IMG/VR virus record: IMGVR_UViG_3300033143_001548
Span: 1 to 35,337 of that record
Reading direction: 5' to 3' (one strand)
Length of the DNA: 35,337 nt
Source of the DNA: a virus
The notes under the pieces were generated by a model. It worked only from the letters and a program-made list of their open reading frames with translations. It was not told where the DNA came from and ran no database searches. Shown here piece by piece: positions 4,745 to 35,337 of this stretch. Position 1 is the stretch's first letter. Each line of letters starts with the position of its first letter. Both the position numbers and the translations under genes were made by a program.

Positions 4745-4963
4745 ATGAATACAACTAAATTAAATAAAGCGATTAAAGTAGCTCAGAAAAGATTTGAAGA
4801 CATTCTCACAGTTGTAAGAATAGACGATATCACGATTGTAGTTTTAGAAGATGGTAGTGCTGGCGCATCTATCAGAAAGAAAGGGGATACTGACAAACCC
4901 TTAAACGCAATCATATTAGCTTATCACAGAGCTAAATCAGAACAAGTATTAGAAAGGTTATAA
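4745..4963 (+). CDS. Hypothetical 72-residue protein
   Basis: Not recognised. AGGAGG at 4733-4738 gives a strong site. Residues 1-20 form a helix (KLNKAIKVAQKRFEDIL), residues 21-45 beta strands (VRIDDITIVVLEDGSAGASI), and the C-terminus a helix (NAIILAYHRAKSEQVLERL). The alpha-beta-beta-alpha layout suggests a small compact domain. It begins a row of three tightly spaced small genes (4745-5211). Confidence 0.6.
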   Translation: MNTTKLNKAIKVAQKRFEDILTVVRIDDITIVVLEDGSAGASIRKKGDTDKPLNAIILAYHRAKSEQVLERL

Positions 4964-4964
4964 T

Positions 4965-5102
4965 ATGAAAGTAGTTATAGATATTGAAATTAAAGACGAA
5001 GTAAGATGTTATGAAATAGCTACTGAAATAAAATCACTATTACAAGACTTAGTAAAAGATATTTCAAATTGGAATATAACAGTAAATGTTGAGGAGCAAT
5101 AA
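4965..5102 (+). CDS. 45-residue hypothetical protein
   Basis: Small gene starting two bases after the previous stop, with AAAGG upstream and a GAGGAG near its own end that serves the next gene. The product is a beta strand (MKVVIDIEI), an amphipathic helix (CYEIATEIKSLLQDLVKDI) and a second strand (NITVNV), a plausible beta-alpha-beta mini-domain. No family recognised. Confidence 0.5.
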   Translation: MKVVIDIEIKDEVRCYEIATEIKSLLQDLVKDISNWNITVNVEEQ

Positions 5103-5103
5103 T

Positions 5104-5211
5104 ATGAAAATAGTTGCAATTCAACCCTATGGAGACCGCATAATATGCATCATGGATAATGGTGTAGGTGTGCCTAAGGATGAGATAGAAGGAGAAGTAA
5201 AGATAGGGTAA
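5104..5211 (+). CDS. 35-residue hypothetical protein, possibly truncated by a frameshift
   Basis: ATG 5104 is one base after the previous stop, with GAGGAG upstream. The frame ends at 5209-5211 and is followed at once by two more stops. In the -1 frame the sequence stays open from 5208 to a TGA at 5274-5276 and would continue the protein as VIVEFIDDKFVVSGAAPEAC. The two parts read as one natural small beta-rich protein. A one-base loss, a sequence error or a programmed shift could explain this. The function is unknown. Confidence 0.45.
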   Translation: MKIVAIQPYGDRIICIMDNGVGVPKDEIEGEVKIG

Positions 5212-5246
5212 TAGTAGAGTTCATTGATGATAAGTTCGTAGTCTCT

Positions 5247-5313: not shown

Positions 5314-6201
5314 ATGAAATTCAAAGTTATGTTAGCTAAAAAGTTTGCAAACCATAAACATAAAATAACAAATAATTTTACCATAACTAAAAAGCTTGAT
5401 GGAGTTAGAATTATCATAATTAAAGAGAATAATATTGCAAAGGTATTTTCTAGAACTGGTAAAGAATGCAAGGGGCTAAATGAAATAGTCAATGAAATAA
5501 ATTTATGTGAAGAAAATGATATCGTATTAGATGGTGAATTATTAGCAATCACAAATAATAGTTTGAGTACGCAGCAACAATTCACAGAAACCATAAAAAG
5601 AAGTCAAAATAAAAGTGAAAATAAAACTGGACTAATCTTTAATATATTTGATATGATATCATTAAAAGAATTTGAAAATGGCACATCTAAACTTAATCAT
5701 ATAAATAGAAAATCACTATTACATGAATGGTTTAATAAATATAAATTCAAACACAATATAATAGTAAAAGATTTATATATTGGCAATGATATTAATATGA
5801 TAAATATATGGATTGATATAGCCTCAAACCAAAACTGGGAAGGTCTTATGATTAACTTAGATAAACCATATGTATGTAAAAGAACAGATTCTTTATTAAA
5901 GATAAAGAAAATGCAAACAATTGATTTAAAAATAACTGATATCATTATAGGTAAAGGAAAATATTCCACAGTAATGGGAAAATGTATTGTAAAATACAAA
6001 GGTAATAATGTAGGCGTTGGTTCGGGATGGACCGATGAACTACGAACAAAAATGTATAATAATAAAAATGACTATATTGGAAAAATTATTGAAATACAAT
6101 ACTTTGAAGTTTCTAAAGATAGTAAAACAAATTTAGAAAGTTTAAGATTCCCTGTATTTAAAAGATTTAGAAATGATAAAACAAAAGAAAGTTATAATTA
6201 A
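5314..6201 (+). CDS. ATP-dependent DNA ligase
   Basis: Seals nicks in DNA with ATP; 295 residues, a minimal ligase close in length to the Chlorella virus enzyme. Adenylation domain (about 1-205): motif I KLDGVR with nucleotidyl lysine K27, motif III DGE (73-75), the IFNIFDMI block, motif IV EGLMI (E176), motif V LLKIKK (K196, K198). The OB-fold domain follows (about 206-290: KGKYSTVMGKCIVKYKG, then LRFPVFKRFR). No N-terminal DNA-binding domain is present. ATG 5314 follows AAAGGAG; a GTG at 5266 lies in the hairpin leader and is not favoured. Codons are clearly more AT-rich than those of the metallophosphoesterase and resolvase, hinting at separate acquisition. Confidence 0.9.
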   Translation: MKFKVMLAKKFANHKHKITNNFTITKKLDGVRIIIIKENNIAKVFSRTGKECKGLNEIVNEINLCEENDIVLDGELLAITNNSLSTQQQFTETIKRSQNKSENKTGLIFNIFDMISLKEFENGTSKLNHINRKSLLHEWFNKYKFKHNIIVKDLYIGNDINMINIWIDIASNQNWEGLMINLDKPYVCKRTDSLLKIKKMQTIDLKITDIIIGKGKYSTVMGKCIVKYKGNNVGVGSGWTDELRTKMYNNKNDYIGKIIEIQYFEVSKDSKTNLESLRFPVFKRFRNDKTKESYN

Positions 6202-6915: not shown

Positions 6916-9900
6916 TTATTCGTTCTTATCAATCTCATCTACTAGTTTACGATAGTTATATTTCTCTTGGTCATACGACAAGAATCTAAGTCCAGCCAAT
7001 TGAGCAATAATTTCTAATACTCTATCTTCGCCTTCCTTCTTAACTAACTTCTTAGTATTACTTAAAGGACCTATTTGTTTAGCTATATGAGATAGTCTTC
7101 CATCAAGTTCATTACCATAATAGAAATCTCTATTTAAAGCTAACTCAGCAGGAGCTTTAATGAATGGACTTAATCTACCTATCAATGATTTTAAATCAAC
7201 AGATAAGTCTTGGAATGGCATATTAGGATTATATATCTTTACTCCTTTCTCACCAGTTCCAGGTAATGTAATCCAATCTTGTGCAAACTCACCAGCATCT
7301 TTACTTCTATCAAAATTAATATTAGGGTCTCCAACATTAGATTTATCAATAGCTTGTAAGCCCTTTACGAAAGGTCTATACTTCTCAGGATGTTTGATAA
7401 CTTGTTCCATTTGTAATGGAATGTTTTTCTTAGCCCAAGTCCAAAATGGAATAGCCCTTCTTAAAACTTCTTTCTCAAATACAGTAGCATTCTTATAATC
7501 AAATAAGAATTTGTTTGTAAAATCAGCAGCTAATGCTGGGTCTAATCCTTCTTCGAGATGATGAACAAAGTTTAATAACCTATCCATATTCTCAATATCA
7601 GAACCTACCTTAGTTCCAACCTTATATGGTAAAAACTCAGTAGTACTCAAAGGGTTATATTTAGCCCATTTAGTAGCTGACTTCTTGCTTGATTCCATTA
7701 ATTTTCTAATCTCATATCCAAACTGACCTGAATCAATAACATCAAATTGAATACCAATCTGTAATATCTCTTCAGCAGAATATTTCTTACCAGTCTTAGT
7801 TACAATATCACCTTTAAATGCTCCAGTCATTATATCTCTAATCTTCTTTTTTTGTTTGAAATCAAAAGACTTAATTCCAATATCTAAGTAAGAATTGAAA
7901 CTATTACCTAATGCATTTCTAGCATGGAAAGATGGATTAACAACAGTTACATTTAACTTCCATAAGTGAAGCATTTTATCATAAGCATCTAACATATGCT
8001 GAATACCTTCAGCTTTTTGATATTTAGATAATTGATTAAAATGATTTAATACACTTTGGTCCATATTTCTAACATTGAATAATCTCTTATTGTTTTCAGT
8101 AAGTTTAAATAAAATATCAGCACCATCAATTACTTCTGCATATAAATCATTTGCACGAAAGTTGACGAATACTCCTCTATTTGCTAATTGTTCTATAACA
8201 TAATCAGAAGTAAGTTGTGTACCTTTAGGTACTCTATTTTTAAATACTTTTATTAGATTTTCTTTAGTTACAACAGGGACATCAAAGCCAGTTGGAACCT
8301 TATTAAGTTCAAACTTACGAGTTACTAAATCATAAATCTTATTCATATTCTTTTTATCAAATACAAAGTTTTCATGTTTTATAGCACGCTCAGTAAGTGC
8401 CTTAACTAAATCAGTTTCATAAAGGTCTCTAGGAACTTTAATGCCTGTATCTGCAAAAGTAGGAATCCCACCTTTAGCAACAGTTTCATCCCATGCCTTT
8501 GTGAAATCATCTATACTACCTTTCCAATTTCTCTCTAATTGACTTGAGATGAAAGGTCTACCATCAGAACCTACCACAGCATTCTCAGCAAGCTCAGTAT
8601 AATTATCAAATAAATGCTTGTGCTTTTCTTGAACTATATGAGGGAAATATCCTTTAACGACGTTACTCTCTTCTATAATAGCCATATCATCTAAAAGCTT
8701 TCTAATATCTTTAGCAGAGTCTATAACCTTAGGGTCAACACCTCTTCTTAAGAGTTCAGCTTCATCCATAATCTTAGAGAAGTCTTTAAACTTCCAATCT
8801 ACGAATTGGTTATAAGCCATACCTAATTGAGTTCTAGCATAGTCATCTAATTGGTTATCTCTAAAAGCTTTACTTAATTGTCTTTGAGTATTTTGAGCAT
8901 CCTCAACTTGACCTAAATAAATTTTATCTTGTAATACTTCATCAATAGATTGAATTTGTGCATTCAAATCAGTATTTTGAACCCAATAACCTTCTTTAGT
9001 CTTTTGAAGATTAACTTCAATAGCTTCCATTTGGTCGTCTAATTCACTGATTTTAATATCAGTCTTTTCTAATAAAGCATCATAGAACTTCTCAGTATCT
9101 ACTTGCTCAACTAATCCACGTTCTAAAGCATCATCCATCATACCATCTATAATCTCTCTCTCAGCAGGAGATATATCTTTCAATCTCTTGTCAGGGAAAT
9201 ATTTTTGTAATAAAGACTTTTTATACATTCTAGCTCTACGCTTATTCATGCCCTCAATCTTTTTAGATATACTATCGAAATCAATCTTTAAGTATTTATC
9301 TAAGTTATCAATTTGCTTTTGAGTAAGGTCATACTTCTTAGCTCTATCTTTAGCAGAATCTATAGTAGCACTAGCAAGTTTAGCTTGTTGAGCATCTCGT
9401 AATTGTTTGTTTTTAATCTTAGCAATATTCTCCTCAGGAGTTTGGTTGAATAAGTTATTAACATAATCTCTCAAATCTTCCTTCTTAGCTTGAGCTGCAA
9501 TATTCTTAGCATCAGCTTTCTTTTGAATTATACTTCTAGCTTCATCAGATATTCTACCAGGTTTAACCTTTTTAGTAACACCTGTAATTTGGTCAAATGC
9601 CTTAGCCTTTAAAACTGACTCAGGAATTGCTTCACCTTCTACGAAAGGTTTACCTAAATTAAAATCTTCAGTGTCAACAAATTTAGAGCCATCTCTAACT
9701 ATATCAGAACCTCCAACATAAGCATCTATAAACTCATCAGACTCATTAGCCTTTTTAGAAACATTAGCAACATCTTCCCAAGGGTCAAACTCTTGTTGTT
9801 TTAGAGCTTGCTTAGTTTTACCAAAGTAATCAGTCTTTAAAACATTATCTATTTCAGCATCACTAAGAACTCCAAAAGAACTCTTGGCTTTGGCTTGGGC

Positions 9901-20199: not shown

Positions 20200-21165
20200 C
20201 TAAACACCTGGAGAACCTACGATACCTCTGAAGTCAGAAACTCCATAAGAATATCTCATATATCCTCTGTATTTAGCAGTAAAGTTATCAAATTCTTCCA
20301 TAGCTTTGAACTCTGGCATAATTCTCCAGTAGAAGTTCATCTCATGTCTATCTGATTGTAAGAACCAGTAAGCATCAGTAGCGCTATCACCAGTTGCAGG
20401 AGAACCTAAATAGTCCATTACAACTATTTGTAAAGCTCCTTTAACAACGTTGATATCGTTGTTTGGTCCGCCTGGTAATAAAGTAGATTGTAAAATAACT
20501 CTAGCAGCAAATTCTAAGTTTGGCGGAATGATTAGTTTTGAAGGTCTCATAACGATTAAGTTACCAGCTTCACCTTTCATAGCTCTAAACTTTAACATTG
20601 CAGTTTTTAAATTAGCTTCAGTTAATGGTCCTGACATTAAGTTGTCAACTTCATCATCAGAATCTACTAATGGGTGGTCAACAGCACATAAAGCTTTACC
20701 ATCATAAATAGCAGAAGCTCCAGCTCCACCAGCATCCTCAGTAAAAGCATTAACTAATATTGAGATAGCGTCCTTTTCAACTTTAGCTCTACCTGCTCTA
20801 GCTAAGTCTCTTGGGAACTTGTCCATTTGTGAGTACATTTCATCATCATATAGTTCTCTTTCTACAATAAAACCAGATGTGAATGCAGTATGGATGTAAG
20901 CTCTTTCTAAGCCTGGAGATAACTTTTGGTAAGCAACTGTATCAAGGTTGTCTGCTCTAGCTGTCCAGTCTGTAAATCCGCCTAATCCGAATTCTCTTTC
21001 AACGTATCTGTTTGAAGTTTTAATATTAAATATTTTTGAAAATTGCTCTTCAATTTCGTTATATTCATCAAAGAATATTCTTGCAAATCTCGGCTCTAAT
21101 AAAAGAGCAAATGTTGTGGCCTGATGCGTATTTCCGGCAACAGGAACTACAGGAATTGTAGCCAT
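20200..21165 (-). CDS. Major capsid protein, HK97 fold
   Basis: 321 residues, forms the icosahedral head. Features fit an HK97-type capsid without a protease-cleaved delta domain: an N-arm, a helical E-loop region (ALLLEPRFARIFFDEYNEIE), spine-helix and P-domain segments (FPRDLARAGRAKVEKDAISI), and a late RPSKLIIPPNLEFAARVI block common in Mu gpT-like capsids. A separate scaffold gene is directly upstream. AAAGAGGTGA precedes the ATG. It is followed by a terminator and has a consensus promoter one gene upstream, which fits the need for high expression. Confidence 0.85.
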   Translation of the reverse strand: MATIPVVPVAGNTHQATTFALLLEPRFARIFFDEYNEIEEQFSKIFNIKTSNRYVEREFGLGGFTDWTARADNLDTVAYQKLSPGLERAYIHTAFTSGFIVERELYDDEMYSQMDKFPRDLARAGRAKVEKDAISILVNAFTEDAGGAGASAIYDGKALCAVDHPLVDSDDEVDNLMSGPLTEANLKTAMLKFRAMKGEAGNLIVMRPSKLIIPPNLEFAARVILQSTLLPGGPNNDINVVKGALQIVVMDYLGSPATGDSATDAYWFLQSDRHEMNFYWRIMPEFKAMEEFDNFTAKYRGYMRYSYGVSDFRGIVGSPGV

Positions 21166-32232: not shown

Positions 32233-33447
32233 ATGAAAACTTTAACTAAATATGAAGAAATCAAAGCAATGCTAGAAAATGAATCATCAAATGAATCATC
32301 TGCACCTAAAGAAAAAGTTGCAACATTACCAACTCAGAATTACTATACTAAAGTATGTAAGCAGAAAAACGTACAGCCTATTCCAAACTTTGAACAATTA
32401 ACTCAGAATGTACTATCTGATGAAATTAAAAAAGTTCAAAAACTTGCCAATTTTGCACCTATTACATCAGGTCAAATCACAGGCTTAGAAAAACGTTTCG
32501 CAAAATGCTTCATGCCACTTCCAGAAAACCTTCTAGAGTTAAGCATGAATCAAGCATCAGAAATGATTAAAAAGCTTGATATAATCTACGAGCAAAAATA
32601 CGCTCACATCGTTACAGAAGGTCAACTAGACTTCATAGGGAAAATGGTTATTTGCCCAGATATAGGAGTATACGAATTATGTAATGCTCCTCAAGAATTA
32701 GTACAAGCTAAAAGCGACAACGTTGATGAAATAGTTGTTCGTAAGCAAATGCTTGAAAAAATATTCAGCCTTAAGCAAAAAGCAATTACATCTCAAGATG
32801 GTTCATTAGCTGACCTAGAGTTAGCTGAAAAACAAACCACTGATGAGATTGCTAAATTTGAAGATGAGCAAGTTATTCTTAAAGCTCAACTAGAAGAAAT
32901 CACTTCATCATTTGATATAGAGAATGTAGCTAAATTCTATACTAAAGAAGAAGTTTCACTATTCATTCAAAAGCACCAAGCAACATATTACAAATGGTCT
33001 AAAACTAGAGCATCAGATGGTCAACGTGATTTAATCAACGTTCTTAGAAAACGTGTCGGAGACCCAGAATTAGACCATGCAACATTGATGCAATTCAATA
33101 AAGATACTGCTAACAAATACATCACTCAACTTCAATCAGAAGGTGGTCAGATGGCTAAAGCTCCAGTTGAAGAAACTTATGAAGATACTGATAGAGCTTT
33201 AATGTTCCCTAAAACATTAGCCGAGGCTGAAGAGGCTTATCATAAATCACTTAGAGATACTGTATATAAACTTTGTGCAGTAATTGGTCAAAACGCAGAT
33301 AACAATCCAATCTTTGAATCAGCTAATTTCAATGCAGAGTTCAGAGATTTAATTAGAACTACTTATGTTTACACAGAAAAACAACATTTAATCGACTTGC
33401 TAGCACCAGTAGTAAGCGAAGAAGATGTTGAAGAAATATTGAAATAA
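32233..33447 (+). CDS. 404-residue helical protein with three repeated modules
   Basis: Three diverged copies of a module that starts T/S-x-G-Q and continues with helices: ITSGQITGLEKRF (77 on), VTEGQLDFIGKMV (127 on) and ASDGQRDLINVLRKR (260 on). Copies one and three also keep the second helix (SMNQASEMIKKLD; NKDTANKYITQLQ). Similar single modules occur at the ends of phage DNA-binding and recombination proteins. A coiled coil (about 185-225) joins copies two and three. AAAGGAGA precedes the ATG and a terminator follows. The likely role is DNA- or protein-binding scaffolding; no enzyme motif was seen. Confidence 0.62.
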   Translation: MKTLTKYEEIKAMLENESSNESSAPKEKVATLPTQNYYTKVCKQKNVQPIPNFEQLTQNVLSDEIKKVQKLANFAPITSGQITGLEKRFAKCFMPLPENLLELSMNQASEMIKKLDIIYEQKYAHIVTEGQLDFIGKMVICPDIGVYELCNAPQELVQAKSDNVDEIVVRKQMLEKIFSLKQKAITSQDGSLADLELAEKQTTDEIAKFEDEQVILKAQLEEITSSFDIENVAKFYTKEEVSLFIQKHQATYYKWSKTRASDGQRDLINVLRKRVGDPELDHATLMQFNKDTANKYITQLQSEGGQMAKAPVEETYEDTDRALMFPKTLAEAEEAYHKSLRDTVYKLCAVIGQNADNNPIFESANFNAEFRDLIRTTYVYTEKQHLIDLLAPVVSEEDVEEILK

Positions 33448-33523: not shown

Positions 33524-33796
33524 ATGCTAAGGGTATTAGTTCAACAACATGCTGAATTAGTTTATCACCAATTAATACATAATCAACCTAATAGAGAATG
33601 TATATGTATATTAAAAGAAAATAACTATGGACATATTAGTGTATATAGAGAATCTGATGATTCATTTTACAGTACATATACAGATATAGTTGACGCATTA
33701 AAAAAACTAAGAGAAATGTATACAATAACTATCCTAGACGACCTTACCCAGGGTGGTAAAAACATCTATACAGCCTTGATGGAGAGTGTGAAATGA
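33524..33796 (+). CDS. Hypothetical 90-residue protein with shared C-terminal peptide
   Basis: Not recognised. AAAGGA precedes ATG 33524. The body has alternating helix and strand features (AELVYHQLIHNQP, ECICILKENNYGHISVYRE). The last residues GKNIYTALMESVK carry the peptide shared by five proteins here. The end contains GGAGAG, which also serves as the ribosome binding site of the next gene, whose ATG overlaps this stop as ATGA. First of three consecutive tail-bearing genes. Confidence 0.62.
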   Translation: MLRVLVQQHAELVYHQLIHNQPNRECICILKENNYGHISVYRESDDSFYSTYTDIVDALKKLREMYTITILDDLTQGGKNIYTALMESVK

Positions 33797-34086
33797 AGAC
33801 TATCATTTACAAAGTAGATAAAACACAATGGATAATTTTTATAAAAATGTTATGTAAAACATATAAAAACTTTCGTTCAAACTTTGAAATATATAAATCT
33901 TCTCCACCTGCGACAATATATGATTATGTAGCTATTGAAATAAGAACAGATGGTTATGATTCTTATTTTGCATATTGGGGTTCAACTTCATGGGAAAATA
34001 TAATCTCTAATGAAAATGGAGAATTTATAATATTTAATTCTGGTAAAATCCTATCAAAACTTTTAGGAAGTGTTAAACATGATTAA
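33793..34086 (+). CDS. Hypothetical 97-residue protein with shared C-terminal peptide
   Basis: Not recognised. It overlaps the previous gene by four bases and uses the GGAG inside that gene's tail. The body is Tyr/Trp-rich and beta-prone (YFAYWGSTSWENI, GEFIIFNS). The shared peptide reads SGKILSKLLGSVK and is followed by two extra residues, His-Asp, the only copy not exactly terminal. AGGAAG within the tail serves the next small gene. Base use is very AT-rich. Confidence 0.62.
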   Translation: MKTIIYKVDKTQWIIFIKMLCKTYKNFRSNFEIYKSSPPATIYDYVAIEIRTDGYDSYFAYWGSTSWENIISNENGEFIIFNSGKILSKLLGSVKHD

Positions 34087-34177
34087 AAAAATATGCACAC
34101 AGTATATAGTTTTTATTTCAATGTCCCTAATTATAGCCCTATGTATAGTTATGAGATGGATACAAATAATGCCTTAA
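34079..34177 (+). CDS. 32-residue membrane peptide
   Basis: ATG 34079 overlaps the previous gene by eight bases, with AGGAAG ten bases upstream. The product is a short basic N-terminus followed by one hydrophobic helix (YIVFISMSLIIALCIVMRW) and a short polar end, typical of a single-pass membrane peptide. Its existence rests on start site, spacing and hydrophobic character only. Confidence 0.42.
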   Translation: MIKKICTQYIVFISMSLIIALCIVMRWIQIMP

Positions 34178-34210
34178 GAGGCTCTTCAAGACGTGTAACC
34201 ATTGCAATCA

Positions 34211-34228
34211 CTGGGTTGTAGGACCCGG
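34211..34228 (+). promoter_or_regulatory. Hairpin before the gene at 34257
   Basis: CTGGGT (34211-34216) pairs with ACCCGG (34223-34228), one G-T wobble, loop TGTAGG. TATACT follows at 34231-34236 without a matching -35 at the right distance. The stem may regulate the downstream gene or mark the 5' end of its transcript. Confidence 0.38.
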
Positions 34229-34256
34229 ACTATACTTTTCAAAGGAGGTATAATTG

Positions 34257-34781
34257 ATGGAATTTATATTATTTATATTAATATTTTCAGTGAATACAGG
34301 CTTAATTATTTTTTTCTTAGTTCACCTCATAGAGAACTTTATAAGAAAACAAATAAAACAGCACAGATATACTAAAAGAATTAAAAAACGTAACGCTGAA
34401 ATACGATACAAACAAATGTTAAAAGAATTAGAAGAACAAAATGTATTACCTAGTCAAATAGTACGCACCAATTTAGATGCCTTAGATGTATTAAGAAATG
34501 CAGCTGAACAAACACCCTGGGACTTTCCCAGAGAACCATATCAATATAATGATAGAGACTTCACAGCTCGTAATCATTATTTAGAAGAAGGCACGATTGT
34601 GAAATTATATGCATATAAAGAAACGTGGAAAGTCATAAGAAATAATGACCCTTATGAATTCCGCGAAATATATCTATTAATAAACAATAAAGGTAATTAT
34701 ACAAAAGCACATCGTAGCGATATAGAACTTATCTACCCTAAGAGTAAAATACTATCAGCCCTATTGGAGAGTGTAAAATGA
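34257..34781 (+). CDS. Membrane-anchored protein with shared C-terminal peptide
   Basis: 174 residues. ATG 34257 is favoured over the in-frame TTG one codon earlier; AAAGGAGG precedes it. Residues 2-24 form a transmembrane helix (FILFILIFSVNTGLIIFFLV), then a very basic segment (KQIKQHRYTKRIKKR) and a helix. The C-terminal part (about 108-160, EEGTIVKLYAYKETWKVIRN) looks like a small SH3-type barrel. It ends KSKILSALLESVK, the shared peptide. The tail DNA (TTGGAGAGTG, ATGA overlap) supplies the start signal of the next gene. Because this body is anchored in membrane, the tail peptide would face the cytoplasm. Confidence 0.62.
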   Translation: MEFILFILIFSVNTGLIIFFLVHLIENFIRKQIKQHRYTKRIKKRNAEIRYKQMLKELEEQNVLPSQIVRTNLDALDVLRNAAEQTPWDFPREPYQYNDRDFTARNHYLEEGTIVKLYAYKETWKVIRNNDPYEFREIYLLINNKGNYTKAHRSDIELIYPKSKILSALLESVK

Positions 34782-35179
34782 AAAATATTTTTGATGAGAT
34801 AGAAAAGGCAACTGACCTATTAAATAAAAAATGGATGAACGATGAGGCTAAAGCTAAAACAACAGCTAAAATAACTGATATGAGAAAAAGCATAGATGAA
34901 GTTGTTAAAGAAGCTCTTCATACTTATGATATTGGAGAGATAATAGATACACTATATTGGGAAGGTGTTAAAACAATTGATATAGTTGCTCATTATGGTA
35001 ATCAATCATATGCAACTGTAGAAATCAAAAATGAAACATTCTCAATAGTTGTAAATCTCGATGAATACAAATACTACATAGTAGCAACAACACGCATCCC
35101 AGAGCCCTTAGAGGACGTGGCTAAAGCCCTTACCCTAAAGCTTAGAGATGGCATCTTAAAACTATTGAAGGAGGAATAA
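34778..35179 (+). CDS. Hypothetical 133-residue protein
   Basis: Overlaps the previous gene by four bases (ATGA) and uses the GGAG in its tail. Residues 1-50 are helical (EIEKATDLLNKKW, DMRKSIDEVVKEAL); 60-105 are beta strands (VKTIDIVAHYGNQSYATVEI, SIVVNLDEYKYYIVATT); the end is helical (ALTLKLRDGILKLLKEE). The end ILKLLK faintly resembles the shared peptide but does not meet the pattern. No family recognised. Confidence 0.6.
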   Translation: MKNIFDEIEKATDLLNKKWMNDEAKAKTTAKITDMRKSIDEVVKEALHTYDIGEIIDTLYWEGVKTIDIVAHYGNQSYATVEIKNETFSIVVNLDEYKYYIVATTRIPEPLEDVAKALTLKLRDGILKLLKEE

Positions 35180-35181
35180 CA

Positions 35182-35337
35182 ATGAAAAAAATAATTACAA
35201 TAGCAATCATTTTATCACTATTAATGGTAATGATATCATGTGACAACAATAAAGGAACTAATTATGATTATGAATCAAGATTTATATCATTAAATATACG
35301 TTATGAAATCACAGACGGTAAATTTGAAATTGTTGTA
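35182..35337 (+). CDS. Small lipoprotein, runs into the window end
   Basis: 52 codons are visible. AAGGAGGA precedes ATG 35182. Residues 1-19 are a typical lipoprotein signal (KKIITIAIILSLLMVMIS) followed by C20 in a usable lipobox (MIS-C), then a Asp/Asn-rich linker and beta strands (ISLNIRYEITDGKFEIVV). The product would be lipid-anchored outside the cell membrane, a place used by phage superinfection-exclusion lipoproteins; that role is only possible. If the window closes on itself, the next codon is TGA at bases 1-3 and the protein is complete at 52 residues. Confidence 0.65.
   Translation, partial: MKKIITIAIILSLLMVMISCDNNKGTNYDYESRFISLNIRYEITDGKFEIVV

Follow-up and report, generated by a model that had tools for sequence, protein, structure and literature searches.

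A shared C-terminal tail with one dialect per phage on small early-region proteins of three related phages

Introduction

Why should several small proteins of one phage, with different bodies, end in nearly the same short peptide? The question is raised by an IMG/VR record of 35,337 bp (the window, meaning here the whole of this stretch), which is a fragment of a virus genome with genes cut at both ends (1-202 and 35182-35337). A sequence-only reading of this DNA had proposed that five otherwise unrelated small proteins share a short amphipathic C-terminal helix, produced neither by a DNA repeat nor by a recent gene duplication, by which they could be docked on or targeted to a partner that they have in common. 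The window is compared here with two relatives, G001 (51,088 bp) and G002 (50,345 bp), found in IMG/VR through the window terminase, which is 78% identical.

The shared tail in three genomes

The pattern proposed for the five window proteins, I-[LY]-x-[AK]-L-[LMV]-x-[SA]-[VI]-K, fits all five open reading frames (ORFs), which end at 202, 2564, 33796, 34086 and 34781, and a looser regular expression, run on the 279 window ORFs with 25 aa or more, finds no tail beyond these. All five genes are on the + strand. The first of them, which ends at 202, lacks its 5' part because the record begins within it. Its tail core is SKILEKLLSAIK at 161-196; its body is orthologous to that of G002 41300-41728 (E 1e-6) and its orthologues in relatives are 131-142 aa long. 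An 88-aa protein (2298-2564), SH3-like by eye, ends in the core SPIYKALVNAIK (2526-2561). Directly downstream of the gene for a 404-aa protein lies that for a 90-aa protein (33524-33796) with the core KNIYTALMESVK (33758-33793), and next to it that for a 97-aa protein (33793-34086), in which the core GKILSKLLGSVK (34042-34077) is followed by HD. The fifth, a 174-aa protein (34257-34781), joins an N-terminal hydrophobic segment and an SH3-like region, both recognized by eye, to the core SKILSALLESVK (34743-34778). The segment 33524-34781, to which the feature had been assigned, does contain tails, but they occur at both ends of the window and in other phages as well.

The window encodes five tailed small proteins, G001 ten and G002 thirteen, 28 in total. 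The tail of the family has 12 residues, is strictly C-terminal and follows the pattern [STN]-x-I-x-x-[KR]-[L/F]-x-x-hydrophobic-hydrophobic. The tails were initially chosen by eye and the profiles were built afterwards. A profile built from the window, and thus trained on the same five tails that it scores, gives them 28.5-33.2 bits, while no other ORF exceeds 9.3. An independent profile test gives the same answer across genomes: a profile made from G001 and G002 only places the five window proteins at ranks 1-5 of 49 genes, and so does a profile made from G001 alone. When the 28 tails are set against all other ORFs of the three genomes, the lowest tail scores 20.8 bits and the best other ORF 9.3, and with leave-one-out profiles 27 of the 28 tailed proteins outscore every non-tail gene. 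Only one profile match, a weak one in the DnaE of G001, lies off the C-terminus.

Clustering was assessed by neighbour counts over all C-termini, unselected, with internal segments as the null; an earlier connected-component clustering at a fixed BLOSUM threshold was dropped as too noisy. The window gives 4 neighbours against a null maximum of 3, which is marginal when taken alone, G001 gives 8 against 4, and G002 gives 12 against 4, with one of the twelve a false positive. Fifteen of 17 related genomes are not above the null maximum, and the remaining two, both small fragments, are each above it by one, with no coherent motif. The shared tail is real and no artefact, and it is larger and stronger than first proposed.

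One dialect per phage

Each phage has its own version, or dialect, of the tail. The dialect of the window is [SKG]-[KPN]-I-[LY]-x-[AK]-L-[LMV]-x-[AS]-[VI]-K (5 tails), that of G001 is [ST]-[ILVS]-I-x-x-[KR]-L-x-x-[AST]-[ASI]-x (10 tails) and that of G002 is [NS]-x-[IV]-x-x-[KRAT]-F-x-x-[LIM]-[LFMIC]-x (13 tails). Column 3 is Ile in 27 of the 28 tails. Position 7 is Leu in every tail of the window (5/5) and G001 (10/10) and Phe in every tail of G002 (13/13). At columns 2, 7, 10 and 11 the residue varies with the phage, the observed value being reached by none of 5000 label shuffles, and these four positions probably set the specificity of the tail. A literature search of partial coverage returned no published account of such dialects.

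The bodies of the tailed proteins follow a different relationship, with the best matches running between phages and not within one phage. Orthologous bodies are found by sequence for G001 1586-1864 and G002 44738-44998 (E 9e-14), G001 4851-5246 and G002 41300-41728 (E 8e-9), G001 41084-41353 and G002 46741-46998 (E 1e-7), and G001 48911-49177 and G002 48373-48651 (E 6e-5). Between the partners of these four pairs the tails score only 7, 1, 2 and -3; with the other tailed proteins of the same genome the mean scores are 21-24. A fifth pair, G001 37982-38251 and G002 8495-8791, is mostly syntenic and has a tail score of 19. Over the five pairs the observed arrangement of tails is the maximum among all swaps, and orthologous bodies each bear the tail of their own phage. 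An exception in dialect is G001 37982-38251 (L006:1982-2251), whose tail SVIRRKLMGSIK resembles the window dialect more than that of G001.

At identical tail residues the same codon is used at rates of 0.44/0.47/0.42, against 0.43/0.40/0.48 expected from codon usage. Codon agreement is thus at about the level expected from codon usage, so the tails are not copied DNA, and the original exclusion of a DNA repeat holds. The swap test speaks against simple duplication; many of the bodies are nevertheless diverged SH3-like paralogues. Taken together, the per-phage dialects, the own-phage tails on orthologous bodies and the unshared codons speak against DNA repeats or simple duplication and favour a single common partner with which the tails co-evolve.

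In three window genes, the codons of the E/G-S-V-K end double as the Shine-Dalgarno sequence of the next, overlapping gene. One is GGAGAG at 33781-33786 (+), in frame within the tail, and the other two lie at 34065-34070 and 34766-34769. This in-frame use may contribute to fixing the last residues of the tail; it is no explanation for I3 or L7.

Protein bodies and the predicted helix

The bodies were at first taken to be otherwise unrelated. This is correct for some of them, and several (e.g., G002 35326 and 35558) have no convincing sequence match to the SH3 group, but across the family many are small barrels of the SH3-like type and paralogues that have diverged. Many begin with a sequence like M-x-F-K-x-GD-x-V. 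The AF2 model of G002 44738-44998 (mean pLDDT 71) has a five-strand SH3-like barrel and a separate C-terminal helix at residues 77-85, where pLDDT is below 50. In a Foldseek search against the PDB this model matches SH3-like proteins (ribosomal KOW proteins, PWWP domains, PsaE and OapB) with E values of about 1e-3 to 1e-2 (best 1.4e-3); the assignment as an SH3-like barrel on these grounds applies to this one body family. Compared with known small barrels of the KOW/Tudor-like kind, the tailed barrels lack confident Pfam membership and have an extra C-terminal helix. Pfam, PHROGs and PADLOC assign no function to the tailed proteins tested, and none of those scanned has a Pfam match to SHOCT (PF09851).

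The description of the tail as a short amphipathic helix fits two of the three dialects. The hydrophobic moment is 0.67 for the G002 dialect and 0.57 for that of the window, where amphipathicity is clear, but for the G001 dialect it is 0.38, no higher than the 0.36 of shuffled sequences. A helix attached to an SH3-like body is what the low-confidence model suggests.

Gene neighbourhood and candidate partners

All tailed genes are located among early-region and replication genes, and none is in the structural block. In G002 the order is tailed gene, SSB-like gene, small gene, two tailed genes, DnaB, tailed gene, primase, tailed gene, kinase, tailed gene, DnaE, tailed gene and PD-(D/E)XK nuclease. 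The slots in G001 are closely similar, so that in both genomes most tailed genes sit between genes for SSB-like protein, DnaB, primase, kinase, DnaE and nuclease. About 15 kb present in G001 and G002, including DnaE, DnaB and primase, is absent from the window, which retains the last slot: its PD-(D/E)XK nuclease gene (213-1193, +) follows a tailed gene, as it does in the DnaE–tailed gene–nuclease slot of both relatives. The window also encodes an ATP-dependent DNA ligase (5314-6201, Pfam 2e-20), found in neither G001 nor G002. The suggestion of a partner in the replisome is supported by these slots, in which most tailed genes of G001 and G002 lie between replication genes; the support is circumstantial because all early-region genes lie there.

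Two window proteins are candidates for the partner. A 133-aa protein (34778-35179, +) belongs to a fast-evolving family (28-35% identity) that adjoins tailed genes or lies near them in all three genomes of the clade and was not found in the relatives without tails. The 404-aa protein (32233-33447, +) could be a hub; its model is all-helical (pLDDT 80, pTM 0.43) and has no meaningful fold match in the PDB. Repeated [ST]xxQ..I..L modules are seen in its sequence, and distant homologues occur in several related phages. Homologues are present in G009 and G014-G016, relatives in which no tails of this kind are detected, which weakens the case for a hub, and judged by position and phylogenetic pattern the 404-aa protein appears a less likely partner than the 133-aa family.

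Reach beyond the clade

The clear motif is common to only three genomes, those of the window, G001 and G002. No shared tail was seen in most other related contigs, nor a comparable tail in isolates whose DnaB, DnaE, capsid or terminase marks them as relatives, and a tblastn search of 50,697 phage records with one tailed protein from G002 and one from the window gave no matches. It had been stated that homologues without any conserved tail in related phages would speak against the module. Such a homologue exists in the distant G010, where an orthologue of the G002 44738-44998 body (E 4e-14) has a different C-terminus, but within the clade the tail is kept. As the G010 orthologue ends differently while the clade keeps its tail, the tail is a separable module and the finding stands.

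A fourth dialect, [STN]-x-E-x-x-F-[WF]-x-[EDKN]-[VA], is found on seven SH3-like tailed proteins of L308/L240 (10.1 kb), found via its DnaB, which is about 52% identical. Position 7 is Trp in six of the seven and Phe in one, the register being anchored by pairs such as NPEADFWREV and NPIFKRFREL, and some of the bodies match G002 bodies (1e-7 and 2e-5). Because its tailed genes are clear paralogues of one another, L308 is weaker evidence for independent change.

Other C-terminal similarities were met on the way. In G015 (L197:4037-5103, - strand) three tandem KGDxV small proteins, two of them recent paralogues (78% identical), share the C-terminal ITEKEYQKQLK; they are SHOCT-like by eye and have no Pfam match. 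L131 encodes two KGDxV proteins (31-246 and 614-898, - strand) whose bodies differ but whose C-termini fit [ST][RK]K[NT]TN[VI]DKY, possibly a further dialect. In both cases a body of the same type may carry yet another short C-terminal module. In L311 (Bacillus phage 056SW001B) the clustering picked up many E/K-rich charged gene ends, which are possibly a product of in-frame Shine-Dalgarno sequences and call for caution in C-terminal motif searches.

Comparison with known systems

Sliding clamps are bound by short C-terminal peptides, such as bacterial QLxLF and those of the T4 gp45 partners, and many proteins thereby share one replication hub. The phage tails resemble these peptides in being short, hydrophobic and C-terminal. 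As beta-clamp binding motifs they were rejected: inspection found QLxLF in 0 of 28 tails, and no phage clamp gene was recognized. A conserved host clamp would also leave the dialects unexplained.

Loading of the encapsulin type had been suggested from the ends of the window proteins, and this suggestion is not supported. The G-S-[VI]-K end occurs in 1/5 window tails, 1/10 G001 tails and 0/13 G002 tails (2/28). The targeting consensus of Family 1 encapsulins, SDGSLGIGSLKRS (PMC8346489), is unmatched, and no encapsulin shell gene lies beside the tailed genes: the only recognized capsid gene (20200-21165) encodes a phage capsid and is in the structural block, away from them. Both kinds of peptide are short, C-terminal and carried by varied cargo, but the phage tails have no conserved Gly and look helical.

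In T4, a peptide of 10-19 residues is common to several small, poorly conserved internal proteins, and in T4-related phages other proteins have sequences like this capsid targeting sequence (CTS) (PMC9026906). Among the systems compared, the tail is functionally most like the CTS, by analogy: in IPI, IPII and IPIII, too, a short peptide is carried by several small, variable phage proteins whose bodies turn over while the address stays (PMC9026906). In T4, however, gp21 cleaves the CTS, which stands at the N-terminus and is tied to head assembly (PMC9026906), whereas the phage tails belong to early-region genes and have a dialect for each phage. No tail is an N-terminal cleaved propeptide, all 28 being C-terminal.

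Proposed mechanism and alternatives

The tail is probably a C-terminal docking helix for one phage-encoded hub, with replication or early DNA metabolism the most likely setting. An N-cap Ser, Thr or Asn would be followed by about three helical turns in which positions 3, 7, 10 and 11 are hydrophobic. A short linker would join this helix to a varying assortment of small early-region proteins, of which many are SH3-like barrels. One and the same site on one common partner would receive every tailed protein of a given phage. When the pocket of this partner changes, every tail in the genome would change along with it, giving the dialect of that phage. In each genome the tails vary in concert and the bodies retain their orthology, so the partner probably differs between phages as well; a phage protein is therefore favoured over a conserved host protein. 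The earlier proposal of a docking or targeting signal is thus well supported as an interpretation of the C-terminal position, the lack of DNA copying and the concerted variation within each phage.

Other explanations have to account for the same dialects. If each phage had expanded an SH3-plus-helix gene of its own, the tail would be a remnant of descent with no shared partner. The many diverged SH3-like paralogues among the bodies, and the recognizable paralogy of the tailed or C-terminally similar genes in L308 and G015, agree with such lineage-specific duplication, but it is improbable, and the orthologue swap test largely contradicts it. G001 and G002 have at least four body families in common by sequence, and a fifth by synteny, with different dialects, so that changes at positions 7 and 10 would be needed in parallel in each family; some tailed bodies have no detectable similarity to the SH3 group, and codon identity shows no excess. 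It is also unlikely that the tail brings small proteins into the prohead through a scaffold, portal or capsid protein. Such cargo, small and variable, would resemble the internal proteins of T4, but the tailed genes belong to the early region and not to the structural block, the tail is C-terminal and the encapsulin consensus is unmatched. Moreover, phages of different dialects have capsid proteins that are 80% identical.

There is a similarly small chance that the tails bind each other and co-evolve by hetero-oligomerization without a separate receptor. The 3-7-10 hydrophobic spacing resembles the face of a short coiled coil, and association between tails would account for the dialects equally well, but about three turns are short for a bundle that is stable alone, and in the dialect of L308 position 3 is Glu. 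A membrane-binding amphipathic helix or a proteolysis tag is very improbable; the G002 and window dialects are amphipathic, but the G001 dialect is not more so than shuffled sequences, and a lipid or a conserved host protease would impose no phage-specific dialects. Hardly any weight can be given to a coding constraint, in which C-termini are alike because the Shine-Dalgarno sequence of the next gene is read in the same frame. Such sequences do lie within three window tails, and the charged ends of L311 may be of this kind, but in two window tails and many tails of the relatives they lie outside the core, and columns 3, 7 and 10 are mostly upstream of them with varied codons, which contradicts this constraint as the main cause. 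The docking helix for a common phage-encoded hub is the reading preferred here.

Significance

Small early proteins number dozens per phage, their functions are obscure and their joint action is rarely evident. In the present phages, the sequences by themselves suggest a single partner for 5-13 such proteins per phage. A bolder and rather doubtful extension is that the tails form a private address system, in which a fast-evolving phage receptor reads a phage-specific code on as many as 13 early proteins, so that these would assemble at the replication machinery or compartment of their own phage instead of at that of a co-infecting relative. The tails offer a ready bait for the partner, together with natural matched and mismatched pairs. 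They also suggest a general method, in which C-terminal dialects within a genome may lead to hidden hubs in viral genomes.
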